A stretch of DNA of 64,000 nucleotides from Clostridiales bacterium (lineage in GTDB: Bacteria > Bacillota > Clostridia > Oscillospirales > Oscillospiraceae): assembly GCA_029010715.1 (NCBI GenBank), contig JAQXKZ010000007.1, positions 1 through 64,000 on the forward strand, written 5' to 3'. A program made the position numbers and the translations under genes. This document shows positions 944-10,172 of this stretch, in pieces (positions within the stretch are counted from its first letter, which is position 1; every line of letters starts with the position of its first letter). Under the pieces are notes generated by a model. It searched no databases. It had not been told where the DNA came from and saw only the letters and a list, made by a program, of their open reading frames with translations.

Positions 944-2446
944 TCATATTGTTTTGGGTATGAGCAGAAGTCTGGCCGGGTTCTCTTCGTCAAGTTTGTT
1001 AGCGGCACTTATTTTCTCCATACTCGAATGATACTGTTTTGCGAGTTCCCACAGTGTCTCCCCATCGGGCCTTACAAGCGTTACTGCCGGAAACATTGAA
1101 GTATCGTATTTTTCCTCCTCGTTGAGCTCTACGCTCTCGACCTTCTTCAGCTCCACACTGCTGCAGGTGAGGCAGCTGAGTTCAAGTGCCAGATGTCCGT
1201 CAACAAACTGTCCGTCAGGCCGCAGATACACATCCGTCAGCCTTGCGCCGCTTATGCGCATGCCGCCCGACGCGCTCTCCCCTTCCATGCTTATGCTCCG
1301 CCTGACCGCGGAAATCTGTCCCTGATTTGTCCTGTACACGACGTCCATGTTCACGGAGGCCGTCAGCTTCGTCTGTTCCTGGGAAATATGCGCAACGGTC
1401 AGAAACGCACTGAGCACATCGGTGCAGTCATCGACAATGCTTATCCTCTCGTCCGCGGTCAGTTTCACCTTCTGGATATCCGAGACCATGTCGAAGCGGC
1501 ACTGCAGCACATTACATTGGGCCGGCATTACATTGCTGTACGCATCGGCTATATACACCATACGCTCTCGGCTGCGGGATACGATCTGCATCACGGCATG
1601 TATCTCGGCGTCGAGAGACTTGTCGCCGTTTATTATATCGGTAATATCAAAGTATGCTCCCGTGAGTTCGATCCGGACATTGCAGCCGTCAATACGCTCC
1701 TGTCCGATATCCACTATCTGAGAAAACGGCGTCGAGAACTCAGTTCGTACCGGGTAATTCACTTCATCCGACAGGTAGCATGCTGAGATGTCAGCGCTGC
1801 CCTTTACGATGACCTTGGTACCGATAAGCTGGCTGTCGCTGACGCTAAAATCCACCTGAGCGGCAACAAGCCTTGAAGGGACGGGTTTTCCGCTCGGGAA
1901 AGTAAACTGTTCGTTTATCGCAAAGGTTTTCTCGCAGGCGGCATTTGTAAATGTCAGCTCAGCGCTCTCATATCTCGCATGCAGGCCGCTGCAGACATCT
2001 GCCGGCAGCGCCGACTCGAGACACACGCTTTCCTGCCTGTAGCAGCTCAGCTCCCCACATATTTCAAACGTTACCGAAACCTTGCGGGGATTTATCACGC
2101 GGGCCTCGGCGTTGGCAATGCTCAGGCCGATCTGCGCTACCGCATCCGTGCCGGCATCCGGCACCTCATACTCGATCGAAAACGACTTGCTGAGTCTGAC
2201 AAAAGACATGCTCTCCTGACTCTCGGTTATGTACAGCAGCGCCGCGCTGGCCTCTCCGGATATCAGCACGCCTCTGCTCGTAAGATCCTTGCTTTTGAGT
2301 ATCACCCAGCTGTGCACCGCCGCTATGCGACCTATATCGTCATCTGTATCCGGCACGACGCTCTCCGCCGACTCCTGTATCTTTTTCGTCTGGTGGTATA
2401 TTTCCCTGAATGTGTTTATGCACTTATTATCAAAGCTTATTTCCAT
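944..2446 (-). CDS. SipL/SpoVID-like spore coat morphogenetic protein
   Basis: A 500-residue protein made of a long DUF3794/SPOCS-like region (roughly residues 1-430) and a C-terminal LysM domain (about 455-498, containing GETLWELAKQYHSSMEKISA). This architecture is that of SpoVID in Bacillus and SipL in Clostridioides difficile, which bind the coat ATPase SpoIVA through the LysM domain and encase the forespore. It lies 54 bases downstream of spoVM, the peptide that anchors SpoIVA to the forespore membrane, which supports a coat-basement role. AGGAG sits nine bases before the ATG at 2446. No signal peptide is apparent, as expected for a mother-cell cytosolic protein. The SipL role is inferred from architecture plus context. 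Confidence 0.85.
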   Translation of the reverse strand: MEISFDNKCINTFREIYHQTKKIQESAESVVPDTDDDIGRIAAVHSWVILKSKDLTSRGVLISGEASAALLYITESQESMSFVRLSKSFSIEYEVPDAGTDAVAQIGLSIANAEARVINPRKVSVTFEICGELSCYRQESVCLESALPADVCSGLHARYESAELTFTNAACEKTFAINEQFTFPSGKPVPSRLVAAQVDFSVSDSQLIGTKVIVKGSADISACYLSDEVNYPVRTEFSTPFSQIVDIGQERIDGCNVRIELTGAYFDITDIINGDKSLDAEIHAVMQIVSRSRERMVYIADAYSNVMPAQCNVLQCRFDMVSDIQKVKLTADERISIVDDCTDVLSAFLTVAHISQEQTKLTASVNMDVVYRTNQGQISAVRRSISMEGESASGGMRISGARLTDVYLRPDGQFVDGHLALELSCLTCSSVELKKVESVELNEEEKYDTSMFPAVTLVRPDGETLWELAKQYHSSMEKISAANKLDEENPARLLLIPKTI

Positions 2447-2500
2447 ACATCATTGCTCCTTGCTGCACAGTTTGTACAGCATATGCCGGTCCCGTTCCCG

Positions 2501-2572
2501 TTATTCCCCAAGCCTGAGCTTCGCGATCAGATTGGAAATGAATTTCGGCAGTTTGAAAATAAAAACTCTCAT
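2501..2572 (-). CDS. spoVM: stage V sporulation protein SpoVM (23 residues)
   Basis: A 23-codon gene starting MRVFIFKLPKF and ending LIAKLRLGE. SpoVM of Bacillus (MKFYTIKLPKF...) shares the KLPKF core at identical positions, including Lys7, Leu8 and the functionally important Pro9, followed by a short amphipathic helix. SpoVM sits on the convex forespore membrane, anchors SpoIVA and so starts coat assembly. AAAGGAG lies six bases before the ATG at 2572. Synteny agrees: in Bacillus spoVM lies downstream of prkC and rsgA, as here, and the next gene is a SipL/SpoVID-like protein. The peptide is too short for default gene finders. The match was made by eye, but start, ribosome site, motif and context all agree. 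Confidence 0.88.
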   Translation of the reverse strand: MRVFIFKLPKFISNLIAKLRLGE

Positions 2573-2615
2573 GTCCGCTCCTTTCTTTTATGGCCCATGT
2601 CAAAGCGGCCGCCGC

Positions 2616-2768
2616 TCAGCAGCTGCGTATAAACCATATGCCCAGTCCGATAAGCGCCGCCGCAAGAATAAACCACCAGAACTCCGTCGGCAGGACAAGG
2701 GACAGTATTATCACGACGCCCGCAATTATCGCCACGCAGCCCCATATACTGTGGTTCCCTTTGCGCAT
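2616..2768 (-). CDS. small membrane protein (50 residues), between rsgA and spoVM
   Basis: A 50-residue peptide: a short basic N-terminus (MRKGNHSIWG), then two closely spaced hydrophobic stretches (about 11-27 and 31-47) separated by PTE, ending FIRSC. It would form a small hairpin-like membrane protein. GGGAGGCGG lies about seven bases before the ATG at 2768, and that ribosome-binding site is itself one arm of a strong hairpin. It is in the same orientation as rsgA and spoVM and 43 bases upstream of spoVM, so possibly cotranscribed. I do not recognise a named family. A sporulation-associated role is only a guess from position. Confidence 0.7.
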   Translation of the reverse strand: MRKGNHSIWGCVAIIAGVVIILSLVLPTEFWWFILAAALIGLGIWFIRSC

Positions 2769-2775
2769 AAAAAGA

Positions 2776-2820
2776 CCGCCTCCCGCTGAATGGATTCCTC
2801 ACATTCTACGCGGGAGACGG
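2776..2820 (-). promoter_or_regulatory. hairpin enclosing the ribosome-binding site of the 50-residue membrane protein
   Basis: On the minus strand CCGTCTCCCGC pairs with GCGGGAGGCGG (11 bp, one G-U type mismatch), with a loop of about 23 bases. It is followed by TCTTTTT and then the ATG at 2768. The second arm contains the GGAGG of the downstream gene. It can be read as an intrinsic terminator for the rsgA operon or as a translational or attenuation switch. Confidence 0.5.
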
Positions 2821-3001
2821 TTGTTTTATGCTTCTTTTGTCACTTATATGTATTTTCAACCAGACTCCTGCTAAAAGCATACTCAGTCTGCTTATGGCAG
2901 CGCCGCAGGCGCGCGGTGGCCTTTGCGCTTTCAGTGCAGTGCTACGGCGCCGAAAGTATCGAATTTGCAATAAAGCGTCCGCTTTATGTTGTAAAACTGT
3001 A

Positions 3002-3880
3002 TCATACTTCCCACGACTTACGCTGTGCAGCAATTTCGTACAGGCGCTGATACGAGCGGTAACGGCTCGCCGTTATCTCTCCGTCATCCACGGCCTGCCT
3101 CACCGCGCAGCCCGGTTCCTTCAGGTGGGCGCAGTCATTGAAACGGCATTTGCCGATATACGGAGCAAATTCGATAAAACAATGCTGAATGTTTTCCTTG
3201 CTTATCTCGCAGAGCATCTCCACGTCCAGCGAGGCGAAGCCCGGTGTGTCGGCAATGTATGTACCGTTTCCCAGCTCATAGAGCTGCACATGTCTCGTCG
3301 TATGCTTGCCGCGGCCAAGCCTTTCGCTTACGGCGCCCGTCTCAATATTCGCCCCGGGCAGCAGAGCATTGAGTACGCTCGACTTACCGACGCCTGAATT
3401 GCCGGTAAAAGCGCAGACCTGTCCGCGCAGAGCCTCACGCAGGCTTTCTATGCCCTCACCGGTCTCGGCGCTGGTGCGTATAACGTCAAAACCGGCGCGG
3501 GTGAAAATATCATACAGCTCCTCGGCAGTATCAATATCCGTCTTGTTTATGCACAGCAGCAGCCGGCACTCCGCCTCGGCAGCTATCACGGATACGCGGT
3601 CTATAAGAAACGGATCCGTCACGGGATTCGTGTTTGCCGCGACAAATACCAGCGTGTCAATATTGGCCACAGCAGGACGGATAAAGAAGTTACGGCGTTC
3701 GTACAGACTGTCTATGCGTCCTTTTCCGTTAGGCTCAACACTGCAGCGTACCCTGTCCCCAACCAGCGGTGAGGTGCCGTCCATTCTGAATTTGCCGCGC
3801 GCTCTGCATTCGATTATCCCTTCCGGGGTATCGACATAATAAAAACCGCTGAGCGCTTTGACTATGATTCCCTCTGCCAT
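3002..3880 (-). CDS. rsgA: ribosome small-subunit-dependent GTPase A
   Basis: A 292-residue circularly permuted GTPase that helps mature the 30S subunit. An N-terminal OB-fold precedes the G domain; the permuted order is visible because NKTD (about 112-115) comes before the P-loop GNSGVGKSS (160-168). A C-terminal Cys/His cluster (GKCRFNDCAHLKEPGC) is the zinc-binding motif of the family. The length is normal. The gene begins three bases after the prkC stop, the same prpC-prkC-rsgA order as in Bacillus, and is presumably cotranscribed. Confidence 0.96.
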   Translation of the reverse strand: MAEGIIVKALSGFYYVDTPEGIIECRARGKFRMDGTSPLVGDRVRCSVEPNGKGRIDSLYERRNFFIRPAVANIDTLVFVAANTNPVTDPFLIDRVSVIAAEAECRLLLCINKTDIDTAEELYDIFTRAGFDVIRTSAETGEGIESLREALRGQVCAFTGNSGVGKSSVLNALLPGANIETGAVSERLGRGKHTTRHVQLYELGNGTYIADTPGFASLDVEMLCEISKENIQHCFIEFAPYIGKCRFNDCAHLKEPGCAVRQAVDDGEITASRYRSYQRLYEIAAQRKSWEV

Positions 3881-3883
3881 TTA

Positions 3884-5572
3884 TCACCTGTATTCGTCCG
3901 GACCGGACGAGACCTTGAGATAGATTTTGGAGTGTTCCTCTATTTCCGTAAATGCGTCGATGCTCTGGCCTATGACAGTGCCGGCATCGAGATCGCTCGT
4001 AACCCGGTCGGAGCCGCCGTAACTCAGGCCGACGCTCTCCAGCTTGGAAATGGCGGCGTCCTCGGACAGGCCGACCAGATTCGGCATAACTACCTGCCCG
4101 ATCTTAGGTCCGCTGCTGACCGTAACATATACGGTTGAGCCGGAGCTGAGCTGCTCATTGGCAGCAGGGCTGGTGCTTATAACATAATCCTTTGTCACGG
4201 TATCGGAGGTCGCGTTCTCTATTTCCACAACGAATCCCGCCTGTTCGAGACGGTTCTTCGCCTCTCTGTAGTCGATATTCGACACATCCGGCACCGGAGC
4301 GAAGATAACGCCCGTGCTGACAGTCAGTTCCACGCGTATGCCCTCAGGCGTGACCATCATGCTGCGGCCGGCTTCCGGATTCTGGTTAAGGATGGTTCCG
4401 GCCTCGCTGTTGGTATCTACGACATAAACGACGTCGAACTTATACATTGAGGCGATATCCACATTTTCAAGTACGGATTGATAGTTGCTCCCTACAAAGC
4501 TCGGCAGACTGATACGCTCCGCCGGGGCGAAAACATCGCCGAGCCAGAAGTCCCACAGAAAAACGAACAGAGCTATGCTCAGCGAAATCGCCCCGAAAGT
4601 ACCTGTAAGGAAGCTCACACGCCCCGCCCTTTTATGCCGGAGCGCATAGCGTTCGCTGTCGAGCTCGCTTACGGAGCGTATCGGAACGACCGCGGGGTTT
4701 TCAAATCCTTCCTCTTCCGCGGCTTCCTCAGCCTTGAGCTGAGCTTTGGTAAATTCGTCGAGATCGGTCAGAAGCTCATTTGCCGACTGGTATCTTTCGT
4801 CTATCGGCGCGCTCATGGCCTTAAGGCATATCCTCTCAAGCTCCTGCGGTATATCCGGGACTATGGCATGCGGCGGCTCCGGATCAGCGTTCATGTGCTT
4901 GACAGCGATCTCGCCGATGGAATCTCCCTCGTACGGCTTGTGCCCGGTCAGCATCTCGTACATGACGACGCCAAGTGAATACAGGTCGCTCCTGGCATCG
5001 GGACACTCTCCGCGGGCCTGTTCGGGCGCGATATAGTGTATTGAACCTATGGCCTGTCCGTTGTTCTCATATATCTCGTTTTCCAACGCGGCAATACCGA
5101 AGTCGCTCAGCTTTATAGTACCGTCACGCAGCATCATAACGTTCTGAGGCTTAACGTCACGGTGTATAATGCCACGCTCATGCGCATGCGCGAGCGCCTT
5201 GGCCATCTGTTTGCTGAAATGCAGAACCTCACGCCATGCCAGTGCGCCGCGCCGGTCCATATACTGTCTCAGTGTGATCCCGTCCACCAGCTCCATAACT
5301 ATGTATTCGAAATCATCGTTGTGGCTGACGTCGTATACGGCTACGATATTTGGATGGGACAGCATCGCGACCGCGTGTGCCTCCGCGCAGAAGCGGCTGC
5401 GAAAATCCTCGTCGGCAGCCATATCATCACGCATTATCTTTACGGCAACGTTACGGTTGAGTCTGTGGTCAAGGGCTTTGTAGACCAGGGCCATGCCGCC
5501 TTCGCCTATGACCTGCAGTATCTCATATCTTTCATCAAGCAGCATGCCGATGTATTTGTCGTTGTTTTCCAT
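3884..5572 (-). CDS. prkC: PASTA-domain Ser/Thr protein kinase
   Basis: A 562-residue membrane kinase. The cytosolic kinase domain (about 14-272) has the Gly-rich loop GEGGMALV, Lys45, HRDVKPQN (catalytic Asp139) and DFG at 157-159. A transmembrane helix lies near 319-345, followed by three extracellular PASTA repeats to the end. PASTA domains sense muropeptides or lipid II, and the kinase tunes growth, cell-wall metabolism and spore germination in Firmicutes. It lies 21 bases downstream of its cognate phosphatase prpC. All catalytic residues are present. Confidence 0.96.
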   Translation of the reverse strand: MENNDKYIGMLLDERYEILQVIGEGGMALVYKALDHRLNRNVAVKIMRDDMAADEDFRSRFCAEAHAVAMLSHPNIVAVYDVSHNDDFEYIVMELVDGITLRQYMDRRGALAWREVLHFSKQMAKALAHAHERGIIHRDVKPQNVMMLRDGTIKLSDFGIAALENEIYENNGQAIGSIHYIAPEQARGECPDARSDLYSLGVVMYEMLTGHKPYEGDSIGEIAVKHMNADPEPPHAIVPDIPQELERICLKAMSAPIDERYQSANELLTDLDEFTKAQLKAEEAAEEEGFENPAVVPIRSVSELDSERYALRHKRAGRVSFLTGTFGAISLSIALFVFLWDFWLGDVFAPAERISLPSFVGSNYQSVLENVDIASMYKFDVVYVVDTNSEAGTILNQNPEAGRSMMVTPEGIRVELTVSTGVIFAPVPDVSNIDYREAKNRLEQAGFVVEIENATSDTVTKDYVISTSPAANEQLSSGSTVYVTVSSGPKIGQVVMPNLVGLSEDAAISKLESVGLSYGGSDRVTSDLDAGTVIGQSIDAFTEIEEHSKIYLKVSSGPDEYR

Positions 5573-5593
5573 AGCATTCTCCGTTTCGGGGGG

Positions 5594-6340
5594 TTACTTC
5601 ATCACTGCGACTACCGTTACATTGTCTCTGGCACCGCGTTTAAGCGCCTTGCTCATAAGCGCACGGCATATCAGCTCGGGCTCCTGATACTCCTTGGCAT
5701 AGTCAAGCATTTCCAGGTCGGTAACCATATTTGAAAGTCCGTCCGAGCACAGCAGCAGAATGTCGCCGCTCTGCAGGGTAAACTCGAAATAGTCAGCCTC
5801 CACCTCAGCCTCAGAGCCAAGCGCGCGCGTTATGACATTTCGCTGCGGGTGTCTCTTGGCCTGCTCCTTTGTTATAGCGCCGACCTCGACCAGCTCCTCG
5901 ACGAGCGAGTGGTCCCGGGTGATCTGGTAGATGCTGTTGCCGCGGCGGGATATATGATAGGCGCGGCTGTCGCCGACATTGATAATATACCCATTACCGT
6001 TGGACTTAATCACGCCGCCGACAAGAGTGGTACCCATGCCGTTGTATGCCTCGTCAAACTTTGAGTATTCGTAAGAAACCCCGTTTGCCTCCGCGCACGC
6101 GCTCTGCAGGATATCCCTGTAGTCGAAGTTACGGTTCGTGCGAGAAGTAAGCTTGGCATAGATATACGAGACAAATGCCTTGTTAGACAGCTGGCTTGCA
6201 AGCCCGCCTGCCTTCGCTCCGCCCATTCCGTCGCACAGCGCGACAATGAGACTGCTGCGCTGGTCACACTTTTCTATTATGAAGCAGTCCTGATTGTCTT
6301 TTCTGACCATACCCTTGTCGGTTAGTCCAAAGCTCTTCAT
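5594..6340 (-). CDS. prpC: PP2C-family Ser/Thr phosphatase
   Basis: A 248-residue PPM/PP2C phosphatase that reverses PrkC phosphorylation. The N-terminal GLTDKGMVRKDNQDCF and ALCDGMGGAKAG motifs carry the metal-binding aspartates, and the C-terminal GARDNVTVV motif is intact. A longer open frame extends upstream to 6427 into rlmN, but family alignment favours the ATG at 6340 (MKSFGLTD), preceded by GAGG. Its start is 35 bases past the rlmN stop. The pairing with prkC is the conserved Firmicute arrangement. Confidence 0.95.
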   Translation of the reverse strand: MKSFGLTDKGMVRKDNQDCFIIEKCDQRSSLIVALCDGMGGAKAGGLASQLSNKAFVSYIYAKLTSRTNRNFDYRDILQSACAEANGVSYEYSKFDEAYNGMGTTLVGGVIKSNGNGYIINVGDSRAYHISRRGNSIYQITRDHSLVEELVEVGAITKEQAKRHPQRNVITRALGSEAEVEADYFEFTLQSGDILLLCSDGLSNMVTDLEMLDYAKEYQEPELICRALMSKALKRGARDNVTVVAVMK

Positions 6341-6374
6341 TTTGGCCTCGTTTTCTCCCGGCTCATCCTCCGGG

Positions 6375-7406
6375 TTACTGCCTGCTCTGCATTTTTCTGC
6401 GCAGCTGGCCGCAGGAAGCGTCCACATCCCCGCCGAGCTTACGCCTGACTGTAACGTTTACACCTTCGCTCTCCAGCACCTTAATGAAAGCCCGGAGGTG
6501 CTCCGGCGTGGACGGCTGAAAAGGCCGTTCATCCACATGGTTGAGAGGTATAAGATTCACATGGGCCGCCACGGAGCGCGCGTGCTTTGCCAGCAGACGC
6601 GCGTGGCGCTCGGTGTCGTTGACTCCGTCGATCATAGCATATTCAAAAGATATGCGGCGACCTGTCTTTTCATAGTACTTTCTGCAGGCGGCGATAAGCG
6701 CGTCTACCCCTCGGCCGCGGTTTGCAGGCATGATTTTTGATCTGGTTTCGTCGTCCGGCGCATGCAGGGAAACCGAAAGAGTCAGCTGCAAGTCGCGCTG
6801 TGCAAGATCGTCGAAGCGTTCGATGATGCCGCAGGTGGACAATGAGATATGCCGCATACCGATGTTCATACCTTTCGGATGGTTCACAAGCTGCAGAAAA
6901 CGCATAACATTGTCGAAATTATCGAGGGGCTCTCCGATGCCCATCAGCACGATATTCGATATGGGTTTGCCGGAGTCGATCTGCGAATACATCACCTCGT
7001 CGAGTATCTCGGACGGCTCGAGATTTCTGACGAGTCCTCCGATTGTAGACGCACAGAACGCGCAGCCCTGGCGGCAGCCCACCTGAGAAGACACGCAGAC
7101 CGTATTGCCGTGCTTATAGCTCATGACGACCGTCTCGACGGCGTTGCCGTCCCTTAGCTCCCAGAGGTACTTTATCGTGCCGTCCGTCGCGGATATCTGC
7201 TTATTCAGCACCTTTGGCATATAAAGGTCGTATTCAGCTTTAAGCCTTTCCCGCAGGGGCTTTGAGAGATTGGTCATGCCGTCGAAATCCCTCACGCCGC
7301 GGCTCAGCCACTGAAAAACCTGCGCCGCCCTGAATTTCTGCTCGCCGAGGGTCTCAAAGTCCTTCTCAAGCTCCTCCGGCAGCATAGAAAGAATATCTTT
7401 TCCCAT
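6375..7406 (-). CDS. rlmN: dual-specificity 23S rRNA/tRNA adenine-C2 methyltransferase RlmN
   Basis: A 343-residue radical-SAM enzyme that methylates A2503 of 23S rRNA (and A37 of some tRNAs). The CxxxCxxC cluster motif is GCRQGCAFCAS, and the SAM-binding GIGEPLDN and the late catalytic Cys (DASCGQL, near the C-terminus) are present. I prefer the ATG at 7406 (MGKDILSM); a GTG at 7421 would add five residues. It sits between rsmB and prpC, as in Bacillus. Confidence 0.95.
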   Translation of the reverse strand: MGKDILSMLPEELEKDFETLGEQKFRAAQVFQWLSRGVRDFDGMTNLSKPLRERLKAEYDLYMPKVLNKQISATDGTIKYLWELRDGNAVETVVMSYKHGNTVCVSSQVGCRQGCAFCASTIGGLVRNLEPSEILDEVMYSQIDSGKPISNIVLMGIGEPLDNFDNVMRFLQLVNHPKGMNIGMRHISLSTCGIIERFDDLAQRDLQLTLSVSLHAPDDETRSKIMPANRGRGVDALIAACRKYYEKTGRRISFEYAMIDGVNDTERHARLLAKHARSVAAHVNLIPLNHVDERPFQPSTPEHLRAFIKVLESEGVNVTVRRKLGGDVDASCGQLRRKMQSRQ

Positions 7407-7436
7407 AGTATATTCACTCACACGCGCTGTACGGCG

Positions 7437-8747
7437 CTATATCTTTCTCAGTTTCGCGACAAAAAATCCATCCGTGCCGTCCACATTGGGCCAGAATGTA
7501 TACATTCCGTCCGGAGCGTCAGCTCCGCATGTCCTGAATGCATCCGTGCGGAAAGCTTTATTGCGCGCCAGAAAAGCTCTGACTGTCTCCTCGTTCTCCT
7601 CCGAAAGCACAGTACATGTCGAATATATCAGCACGCCGCCGGGGCGGACATAGTGCGAAACGTTGTCCAGGATGGCGCTCTGTATCTCCGGCAGCCCCTT
7701 TACGCTCTCCGGGACCTTTTCACGTATTTCAGGCTTCTTCCCGATAACGCCGAATCCGGAGCAGGGCACATCCGCGATAACGACATCAAAGCATTCTTCC
7801 ATTGTACTGTCGTATATCCGGGCATCCATCGCGGCTGTTTTTATTATATCTATTCCAAGCCTTGCCGCGCCGCTGCGCACCAGTCTGAGCTTCTTCTCGT
7901 GTATATCACAGGATAGTATCTCTCCTCTGCCCTGCAGTGCCATGGCCGCGGCAAAAGACTTGCCGCCAGGGCTTGCGCAGGCATCCAGTACACGCATACC
8001 CGGCAAGAGCCCGGCAGACTCCACGGCAGCACGCGCGGCCCTGTCCTGAACATAGAACAGTCCCTCGTCATAGCCCGGAAGCTCTGCAGCCTGCCTGCCT
8101 TCAAGCACGATACAGCCCGGGAGCACGTCGGATTCCTTATAGGGTATATCCGCTCTGGCAAGGGCGCGCACATAGTCCGCAGGGCTGACCTTCAGCGTAT
8201 TGACCTGTATGGTGAGCGGAGGCGGCGTATTGTCAGCAGCAAGAAATGCCTCCGCAAAATCGTATCCCCCGCGGTCCATCAGATACCCGACCAGCCATTC
8301 CGGGTGGCTGTACTTCACCGCCAGATATGAAGCCGTCCCCTTACCGGGAATCTCCGGCAGGGCGTCTGTATTGTCCGCGATCTTCCTGAGCACGGCGTTG
8401 ACCAGCCCGGAAGCTCTGGCACAGCCCTGACTTTTGCACAGCGCGACAGCCTCGCTCACAGCGGCCCTCGCCGGTATACGGTCCAGAAAGAGCAGCTGAT
8501 ACACTCCCATGCGCAGAATATCACGCAGCTTCGGCTCCAGCTTGCCGGAGCAGTAGTAACCTATATAGAAATCACACAGACGGCTGTTCTGCAGCACTCC
8601 CAGGCAAAGTCTGGAGGCCAATGCGGCGTCACGGCGGCTGAGTTCATATTTTTTTATTGCGGCATCTATAGAGCTGCCCGACCACGCGCCGTCTCTGCGG
8701 CAGCGTCTCAGTGTCTCCAAAGCGGCTTCTCTGGCGCTTACCTGCAT
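7437..8747 (-). CDS. rsmB: 16S rRNA (cytosine967-C5)-methyltransferase RsmB
   Basis: A 436-residue SAM-dependent rRNA methyltransferase. An N-terminal NusB-like RNA-binding domain (about 1-130) is followed by the catalytic Rossmann domain with the SAM motif DACASPGGKS, the DVPCSGFGV motif and the catalytic STCTV cysteine. The ATG at 8747 is preferred over a TTG at 8753; translation starts almost on top of the fmt stop codon, so the two are likely coupled. The length is typical. Confidence 0.94.
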   Translation of the reverse strand: MQVSAREAALETLRRCRRDGAWSGSSIDAAIKKYELSRRDAALASRLCLGVLQNSRLCDFYIGYYCSGKLEPKLRDILRMGVYQLLFLDRIPARAAVSEAVALCKSQGCARASGLVNAVLRKIADNTDALPEIPGKGTASYLAVKYSHPEWLVGYLMDRGGYDFAEAFLAADNTPPPLTIQVNTLKVSPADYVRALARADIPYKESDVLPGCIVLEGRQAAELPGYDEGLFYVQDRAARAAVESAGLLPGMRVLDACASPGGKSFAAAMALQGRGEILSCDIHEKKLRLVRSGAARLGIDIIKTAAMDARIYDSTMEECFDVVIADVPCSGFGVIGKKPEIREKVPESVKGLPEIQSAILDNVSHYVRPGGVLIYSTCTVLSEENEETVRAFLARNKAFRTDAFRTCGADAPDGMYTFWPNVDGTDGFFVAKLRKI

Positions 8748-8749
8748 AT

Positions 8750-9670
8750 TCAATCTACCTTAATTTTATGTCCTCTCAAAAAATCACCGGCACTCATACG
8801 GCGTTTTCCGGGTGCCTGAAGTTCGGTAATGCGCAGCGTTTCTCCGCCGGCGCAGGCGATCTCCAGCCCATTATCACCGGCGCTGACAACTGTGCCGGGC
8901 GCCTTGTCCGTTCTGCCGGCGGTATATTCAGCGGCAAAAACTCTGAAAGTCCTGCCCTCCAGCTCCATGGTTGCGACCGGCCAGGGCTGCAGCCCGTATA
9001 TATGTTTGAGCACCTCGCGCGGCGTTCTGTTCCAGTCTACAGGGCATACTGACTTGTCAAGCATCGTAACGTAGCTTGCCTTACTGTGGTCCTGCGGTAT
9101 GCGCGGCGCCGTGCCTGCGGCAATATCCCGCAGAGTCCTTACAAGAAGCTCGGCGCCCATATCCTTCAGACGGTCAAAGAGTTCTCCGGAGGTCTCGTAT
9201 TCGCCGATCTCCGTCTCCGCCGTGTATATGGTGTCTCCGGTATCCATCTCGCTGGCGAGATACATAGTCGTAACGCCGGTCACTTTATCACCGTTGAGTA
9301 CGGCCCACTGTATCGGCGCGGCGCCTCTGTACTTTGGCAACAGCGAAGCGTGAACGTTGATTGCCCCGTACCTCGGCACGGCCAGAATGTCGTCGGGCAG
9401 TATGCGGCCGTACGCCACTACGACGAGTATATCGGGCGCAAGCTCCTTTATTTGGGCAAGCGCCGTGCCGTCGCGCATCTTGAGCGGCTGATAAACCGGA
9501 ATCCCGTTCTCAAGCGCAAGCTCCTTGACCGGAGAAAAGCTCATCTCCATGCCGCGGCCTCTGGGCTTGTCCGGCTGAGTGAATACACCGACAACGTCAA
9601 ACTTGGCGTCTATCAGCTTTTTCAGCGAGGCCGCCGCGAAGTCCGGCGTCCCCATAAAGACTATACGCAT
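8750..9670 (-). CDS. fmt: methionyl-tRNA formyltransferase
   Basis: A 306-residue enzyme that formylates initiator Met-tRNA using 10-formyl-THF. It shows the start MRIVFMGTPDFAAASLKKL, the folate-site SLLPKYRGAAPIQWA motif and the C-terminal tRNA-binding domain. An open frame continues upstream to 9874, but the family start is the ATG at 9670, a few bases after the def stop at 9675. The def-fmt pairing removes and adds the same formyl group and is widely conserved. Confidence 0.96.
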   Translation of the reverse strand: MRIVFMGTPDFAAASLKKLIDAKFDVVGVFTQPDKPRGRGMEMSFSPVKELALENGIPVYQPLKMRDGTALAQIKELAPDILVVVAYGRILPDDILAVPRYGAINVHASLLPKYRGAAPIQWAVLNGDKVTGVTTMYLASEMDTGDTIYTAETEIGEYETSGELFDRLKDMGAELLVRTLRDIAAGTAPRIPQDHSKASYVTMLDKSVCPVDWNRTPREVLKHIYGLQPWPVATMELEGRTFRVFAAEYTAGRTDKAPGTVVSAGDNGLEIACAGGETLRITELQAPGKRRMSAGDFLRGHKIKVD

Positions 9671-9674
9671 AGGC

Positions 9675-10172
9675 TCAGTATTCCCCGCTTTCCATCTCGT
9701 CATCAGAAAGCATTCGATCACACCTGGAGGTAAACAGCACGCCCTCCAGATGGTCAAGCTCATGGCAGAAGCAGCGCGCGGTGAGCCCTGTGCCTTCGAC
9801 CTCGAACCACTCACCGAAACGGTTCTGTGCTCTGACCTTAACGTCCATCGGACGCTTGACGAGCCCGTATTCACCGGGAACGCTCAGGCATCCCTCAGGG
9901 CCGTATTGCTCACCGGAGGCTTCGATGATCTCGGGGTTTATAAGCTCTATAATGTATTCATCCTCGCCCTCGGGGACATTCGTCTCGAGTACAATAACCG
10001 CTCTGCGCAGGACTCCTACCTGCGGGGCAGCAAGACCGACTCCGCTCTGTGTCCTGAGAGTGTCTGCCATATCGTCGAGCAGCTGGTGGAGCCGGCTGTT
10101 AAAATCCGTTATCAGGCGGCATTTTCTGTAGAGACCCGGATCCTCTTTGGTGAGCACATTTCTAAGCGCCAT
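9675..10172 (-). CDS. def: peptide deformylase
   Basis: A 165-residue metalloenzyme that removes N-formyl from nascent proteins. All three motifs are present: GVGLAAPQVG, EGCLSVPG and HELDHLEG (metal-binding Cys and two His, catalytic Glu). The start is the ATG at 10172 with GGAGG six bases upstream; an in-frame extension to 10229 runs into the priA end and is not needed. It lies upstream of fmt in the same operon. Confidence 0.96.
   Translation of the reverse strand: MALRNVLTKEDPGLYRKCRLITDFNSRLHQLLDDMADTLRTQSGVGLAAPQVGVLRRAVIVLETNVPEGEDEYIIELINPEIIEASGEQYGPEGCLSVPGEYGLVKRPMDVKVRAQNRFGEWFEVEGTGLTARCFCHELDHLEGVLFTSRCDRMLSDDEMESGEY

Follow-up and report, generated by a model that had tools for sequence, protein, structure and literature searches.

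A probable coat-basement gene cluster of a membrane microprotein, SpoVM and SipL with a putative hairpin-nested promoter in an Oscillospiraceae genome

A 23-codon spoVM gene was identified on the minus strand of a 64,000-nucleotide stretch of DNA (the window) from an Oscillospiraceae genome, between the gene for a 50-aa membrane-type microprotein, designated P50, and sipL. This locus is likely to be the head of a coat-basement cluster, P50–spoVM–sipL, whose transcription would start, in the mother cell of the sporulating bacterium, at a promoter nested in a hairpin and in which P50 would be a membrane-side partner. SpoVM and SipL are known kinds of protein in a new arrangement. The spoVM–sipL pair had been described in the initial annotation and was upheld; P50, the promoter–hairpin element and the occurrence of spoIVA after sipL in many relatives had been missed.

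In the proposed mechanism, SpoVM would mark the convex outer forespore membrane and anchor SpoIVA, SipL would bind SpoIVA via its LysM domain and drive encasement, and P50 would most likely be a further membrane-side partner in the same layer. One mother-cell promoter ahead of P50 would drive P50, spoVM and sipL, and the membrane-side components of the basement layer may be produced jointly from this locus. The anchoring of SpoIVA by SpoVM is drawn from B. subtilis work cited in PMC5607322. According to the same source, heat resistance falls by more than six logs in SpoVM mutants of B. subtilis and by 3- to 5-fold in those of C. difficile, a contrast that bears on how SpoIVA is anchored in clostridia. 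P50, whose gene neighbours are spoVM, sipL and in some genomes spoIVA, and which also occurs where SpoVM is not found, is a candidate second SpoIVA anchor. Moreover, spoVM genes are rarely recognised (Galperin et al., 2012; PMC3533761), and the cluster provides a practical handle for locating unannotated ones.

P50 microprotein ahead of spoVM

The P50 gene occupies 2616..2768 on the minus strand. Its 50-aa product (alignment A1) has two hydrophobic stretches split by LP..FWWF and basic N- and C-termini, and its hydrophobicity suggests that it is probably a two-helix membrane microprotein. The pooled pN/pS over seven genomes was 0.45. All Pfam matches of the window P50 and four other members fell under the cut-off, and the best NCBIfam match among 25 members had an E value of 0.0034, none being convincing. 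No P50 family beyond CD25622 of C. difficile was reported in the literature searched, which lay outside most subscription journals. Within these libraries and this literature, P50 is thus an unnamed family, possibly one that includes CD25622.

P50 was found in 91 of 150 genomes of the family (a tally that, like that of SpoVM, counts again the members from which profiles A1 and A2 were built), in 57 of 196 genomes of the class (the window's included; about 25 families) and, at a stricter cut-off, in 29 of 249 genomes of the phylum sample, 28 of them outside the class. One of 20 phylum loci (L243) and one genome in the class list (G307) are probable false matches. Of the 44 family genomes with both genes, 43 had P50 ahead of spoVM at a distance of at most 241 nt (median gap 21 nt), and in the 44th the contig end cuts P50. 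In the class, it stood just before spoVM in 20 of 21 genomes with both (gaps of 8 to 74 nt). Outside the class, 20 loci were fetched from the 28, and a SpoVM match, weak in some cases, lay directly downstream of P50 in 14; the other six comprised three loci of family f132, two of f78 and the one probable false P50 match. These matches suggest that P50 and SpoVM are kept together in many bacterial lineages that are only distantly related. When 20 further class loci were taken at SpoVM matches, a P50-like ORF was present upstream in five (L129, L130, L134, L135 and, by eye, L121), and SpoVM was present with P50 not matched in 26 family genomes.

P50 was also associated with SpoIVA. Of the 124 SpoIVA-bearing genomes of the family, 87 had P50, versus 4 of the 26 others (p 2.7e-7); in the class, the figures were 51 of 139 with SpoIVA and 6 of 57 without (p 2.2e-4). 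P50 is not universal, and its profile gave no match in the remaining SpoIVA-bearing genomes (37 of 124 in the family, 88 of 139 in the class). Some genomes of good completeness contained P50 with SpoIVA not matched (G125 and G072 in the family; G203, G229 and G242 in the class).

Two variations of the gene were seen. At the class loci L099, L101, L109 and L116, two adjacent P50-like matches were present, and the pairing suggests local duplication; both precede spoVM except at L101, which gave no SpoVM. At L064, L072, L076 and partly L059, the place ahead of spoVM is taken by another hydrophobic microprotein, which has an FP or HP turn and is preceded by the same -10-like motif; this substitute may be a diverged P50.

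The part assigned to P50 in the basement layer is suggested by its neighbourhood, its co-inheritance and its membrane-protein look. Such a look suits many roles, and the coat link consists of neighbourhood and co-occurrence only. Hence, P50 could instead be a sporulation membrane protein unrelated to the coat, acting for instance in engulfment or cortex synthesis and using the same promoter. This reading is the less probable one, and it is opposed by the company that P50 keeps, which consists of basement-layer genes throughout: in many families spoVM, in the window's family sipL, and in f21 a divergent spoIVA. In three f21 genomes from outside the order (G300, G199 and G165; compare L084), spoIVA is divergent and about 200 nt from P50–spoVM. 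The f21 arrangement represents a separate clustering of the same partners.

P50 was further found where SpoVM was not. No SpoVM was counted in 47 of the 91 P50-bearing family genomes. Four of the 47 (G015, G070, G110 and G147) show a SpoVM-model match beside P50, which in G015 is weak and starts 6 nt after P50; 43 remain. At L040, L046, L048, L050 and L052, the gap between P50 and sipL was about 35 to 76 nt, around or below the size of a spoVM gene. Five loci of f25, outside the order, had no SpoVM between P50 and rpmB (the latter recognised by pattern in three and by eye in two), and the f25 genomes gave no SpoVM match at E 0.01. SpoVM was likewise not found downstream of P50 at the three f132 loci. 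These absences hinge on the sensitivity of a profile for a very short protein, and a genome without a match may carry a diverged SpoVM; NF033436 at E 0.01 missed f59 genomes that profile A2 recovers.

These genomes bear on a further alternative, in which P50 is a homologue of CD25622 and a nearly neutral companion whose pairing with spoVM is an old operon kept by inertia. CD25622 has 50 aa and lies directly upstream of spoVM, with which it is cotranscribed in a sigma-E dependent manner; according to PMC5607322, CD25622 insertions, probably polar on spoVM, caused no defect past that of spoVM mutants. If CD25622 is the homologue, this result argues against a large role for P50 in C. difficile. 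The many SpoIVA-bearing genomes without P50 would also suit a neutral companion. However, P50 is under purifying selection and was retained in 43 to 47 family genomes and at the f25 and f132 loci in which SpoVM was not found. Inertia does not predict retention of P50 after spoVM loss, and this alternative is accordingly considered rather unlikely.

A more far-reaching version of the preferred reading, with P50 as a basement-layer partner, can be put forward only tentatively. P50 may be an old, hitherto overlooked component of this layer in much of the clostridial spore-formers, a hairpin membrane microprotein that works with SpoVM on the curved membrane of the forespore and replaces it as the anchor of SpoIVA and SipL after spoVM loss. 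If true, anchoring by P50 would help explain the dispensability of SpoVM in some clostridia.

Putative promoter and hairpin upstream of P50

A hairpin followed by a T-rich stretch was located at 2769..2821 on the minus strand, directly ahead of P50. Its arms span 2821-2810 and 2786-2775, and the T-rich stretch (2774-2769) abuts the P50 start codon. The 3' arm carries GGGAGG (2784-2779), which is likely the P50 Shine-Dalgarno sequence. The predicted fold of the window hairpin had an energy of -36 kcal/mol with a z value of -6.76, a level reached by 0 of 200 shuffles. At the junction of the 5' arm and the loop lies a -10-like box of the mother-cell (sigma-E/sigma-K) type, CGTAGAAT (2803..2810, minus strand). 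A possible -35-like element read from the sequence, GCATAAA (2825..2831, minus strand), lies 14 nt before it. The -10 consensus of sigma-E and sigma-K is of the CATAnnnT type.

A mother-cell sigma-E motif had earlier been suggested as something to look for upstream of spoVM, and a -10-like box resembling this type was found ahead of P50. The motif N[AG]TANANTG, which like the hairpin was picked after the sequences had been viewed, was present at 28 of 42 family loci, some 40 nt upstream of P50, where shuffles that move two-base blocks, as for the hairpin, gave an expectation of 1.7; in other families it was present at 12 of 43 loci (2.7 expected). It was found in 0 of 16 stretches between P50 and spoVM, and it stood directly before spoVM in four of eight loci without a recognised P50. 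This distribution is as a single head promoter predicts. In 16 chosen loci, the columns GC.TA...T were invariant and a CATAnnnT-type -10 was present, with A or G at the second position. The -35 match over relatives, with spacing left free, averaged 3.95 versus 3.54 ± 0.14 in shuffled sequences. The -10 core could partly be read as sigma-A. A sigma-70 promoter scan gave 1 site versus 0.8 expected. Taken together, the sequences suggest that a mother-cell promoter is probably shared by P50, spoVM and sipL, which would then be expressed on a single transcript.

A GC-rich hairpin was present in 17 of 42 family loci, the window included (0.6 expected); it borders on the P50 start, and its 3' arm contains a Shine-Dalgarno-like stretch. 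By script, nine of the 17 had the -10-like core within or next to the loop, and by eye the core overlapped the 5' arm in the others. Outside the family, a strong hairpin (score 15) was present in 1 of 43 loci (0.65 expected). Covariation was evaluated in 16 hairpins, part of the 22 family loci scoring 13 or more (L039, L047, L056, L067, L069 and L166 were dropped). Six of 12 pairs had both-sided changes, and the covariation score was 0.338 versus 0.232 ± 0.021 in shuffled alignments and at most 0.203 in slid controls. The alignment and the structure were picked from the same sequences, a choice that gives the hairpin an advantage in the slid control.

The position of the hairpin after rsgA and its T-rich tail would fit a plain rsgA terminator, in which case the -10-like box would have no regulatory role. 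Against this reading, the motif persists at family loci that have no strong hairpin, recurs in other families above expectation and stands directly before spoVM at four of eight loci where P50 is missing. This interpretation is regarded as improbable. The nesting of a putative promoter inside a hairpin is newly observed here, and the element is a putative regulatory one. The hairpin that encloses the -10 box is terminator-like; it would halt read-through from rsgA and keep the P50 Shine-Dalgarno sequence of such transcripts paired, and transcripts starting within the hairpin would leave that sequence unpaired. A terminator scan under a short-loop rule (loops of 8 nt or fewer) returned none here, which speaks against this model.

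Identity and conservation of spoVM

The spoVM gene (2501..2572, minus strand; 23 codons plus stop) encodes the peptide MRVFIFKLPKFISNLIAKLRLGE of 23 aa. The initial annotation had assigned this frame to SpoVM on a KLPKF core with Pro9 in register, and both the assignment and the register were confirmed: the ninth residue is P. Pro9 is also invariant in the SpoVM alignment A2, whose members were pre-filtered for P at residues 7-11. Residues 1-16 matched NCBIfam NF033436 (SpoVM_broad) with an E value of 4.2e-4 and 20.2 bits, below the curated cut-off of 31; the E value was 0.012 in the genome-wide scan. The C-terminal half (LIAKLRLGE) diverges from the family consensus. On this locus, the curated SpoVM model thus stayed below its cut-off, and the family profile A2 (25 members, the window peptide included) gave an E value of 1.4e-7. 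At E 0.02 or less, A2 matched 72 of 150 family genomes; the weak matches of G040 and G015 were set aside, leaving 70. The NF033436 cut-off was passed by 12 of the 150, and 48 matches reached E 0.001, of which at least 45 precede a SPOCS match among those listed. Hence, the cut-off was judged strict for this group. The window peptide is called SpoVM because of its place, register and relatives, not because of the NF033436 model. Its gene lies downstream of prkC–rsgA, the conserved place of a spoVM gene, and the genome also has spoIVA. A whole-genome search with the window peptide as the query returned a single copy, that at 2501-2572.

The frame is conserved. Six close relatives (L058, L227, L229, L230, L231 and L232) have a frame of 20 to 28 codons with (K/R/S)LP(K/R)F and Pro9 in register, in the order P50, SpoVM frame, sipL. 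Over codons 2-20, the pooled pS was 0.72 and the pN was 0.37, a ratio of 0.51 (21 pairs, uncorrected), below the value near 1 that would speak against a conserved gene. A chance ORF resembling SpoVM, for which the NF033436 score under the cut-off might be taken as a sign, is extremely improbable and was dropped, being ruled out by the identical frame, place and motif in these relatives, the profile matches in 70 family genomes and a pS twice the pN. When genomes were ranked by the identity of their SpoIVA to that of the window genome, six of the top nine (L138-L146) had a SpoVM match and three (those of L142, L145 and L146) had none. G109, of the same genus, gave no match for SpoVM, SPOCS, SpoIVA or P50, as expected for a lineage that lost sporulation. 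From its sequence, the window peptide is predicted to reside at the forespore membrane and bind SpoIVA.

sipL and the extent of the spoVM–sipL–spoIVA order

The gene after spoVM (944..2446, minus strand) encodes a 500-aa protein in which PF12673 (SPOCS, two stretches, 50.2 bits) and the C-terminal PF01476 (LysM, 22.8 bits) were both over the cut-off, in agreement with its earlier description as SipL/SpoVID-like. Both SPOCS matches in its own genome fell inside sipL, and no other SPOCS protein was found. Of the 124 SpoIVA-bearing family genomes, at least 120 gave a SPOCS match; in those without SpoIVA the figure was at least 4 of 26. The initial annotation had stated that SipL/SpoVID binds SpoIVA through LysM. 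This is true of SipL alone, since C. difficile SipL binds through LysM (PMC6436350) and B. subtilis SpoVID binds SpoIVA independently of LysM (PMC5607322); by analogy with C. difficile, LysM-mediated binding is predicted for the window SipL.

The minus-strand order is fmt, rsmB, rlmN, PP2C phosphatase, prkC, rsgA, P50, spoVM, sipL, yebC, with prkC (PASTA kinase) at 3884..5572 (NF033483) and rsgA at 3002..3880 (TIGR00157), both on the minus strand and over the cut-off. The prkC–rsgA order of the proposed prkC–rsgA–spoVM neighbourhood was correct, with P50 standing between rsgA and spoVM. Positions 944-9745 of the window keep the order fmt–rsmB–rlmN–PP2C phosphatase–prkC–rsgA. In B. subtilis, rpe, thiN and rpmB follow rsgA; none of these was seen between rsgA and sipL here. 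The SpoIVA of the window genome is encoded on another contig, apart from sipL. At that locus (L077, 4114-6381), the ORF after spoIVA resembles cwlD by eye.

The adjacency was well conserved within the family. A SPOCS gene directly followed spoVM in at least 64 of the 70 family genomes with a SpoVM profile match, and two of the other six show sipL at the locus read. In 31 family genomes, spoIVA followed on the strand of spoVM, no more than 5 kb downstream; with two weak matches picked by hand left out, the number is 29. A SPOCS match was listed between the two genes in 29 of the 31; the exceptions were G043 and G115, and sipL was seen in G115 (L028). This count used 76 matches of the NF033436 scan, those omitted having E values of 0.18 or more; the weak ones picked by hand were G094, G128, G005 and G015, and the total of 31 includes two of them, G005 and G128. 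In the class, 60 loci around P50 or SpoVM were read, and SipL was downstream solely in L094 and L112, both of the same taxonomic order; within the stretch read, it was absent at L095 and L136, two further loci of that order. The recurrence of the adjacency across Clostridia had been proposed as a check: the data support an arrangement that is widespread in the former and not general in the latter. No report of it was encountered in the literature searched, most subscription journals being beyond that search.

A collection scan was run with the SpoIVA alignment, the SipL alignment A3 being too diverged. Among 80 named SpoIVA loci (62 with at least 5 kb upstream), 27 had sipL upstream, and spoVM was present as well in 17 of them; Intestinimonas butyriciproducens (L173) and Pseudoflavonifractor phocaeensis (L149) are examples. 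At L138-L146, the nine loci whose SpoIVA is closest to that of the window genome, SipL was not found, although at four of them the sequence upstream is shorter than 5 kb. Therefore, spoIVA seems to be apart from sipL there, as in the window genome.

Comparison with known systems

P50 was compared with the LiaF-TM family (PF22570), to which it has a weak hydrophobic similarity (E 0.0024, 19.1 bits, cut-off 27); unlike PF22570 matches, P50 stands alone at 50 aa. It resembles CD25622 of C. difficile in its length and its place directly upstream of spoVM. In PMC5607322, CD25622 is described as primarily or uniquely of the Peptostreptococcaceae, whereas P50 extends over about 25 families of the class. 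Homology between the two, which were compared by length and position alone, is plausible.

As in C. difficile, the window SipL combines SPOCS (DUF3794) domains with a C-terminal LysM; two SPOCS stretches were detected in it, whereas three are given for C. difficile in PMC6436350. Unlike C. difficile sipL, the window gene is directly after spoVM, a place near which C. difficile has rpmB (PMC5607322). The window SpoVM is like those of B. subtilis and C. difficile in being a basic peptide of about 23 residues with Pro9 and a KLPKF core, encoded downstream of prkC–rsgA; it differs from them in its diverged C-terminal half and in a score under the NCBI cut-off.
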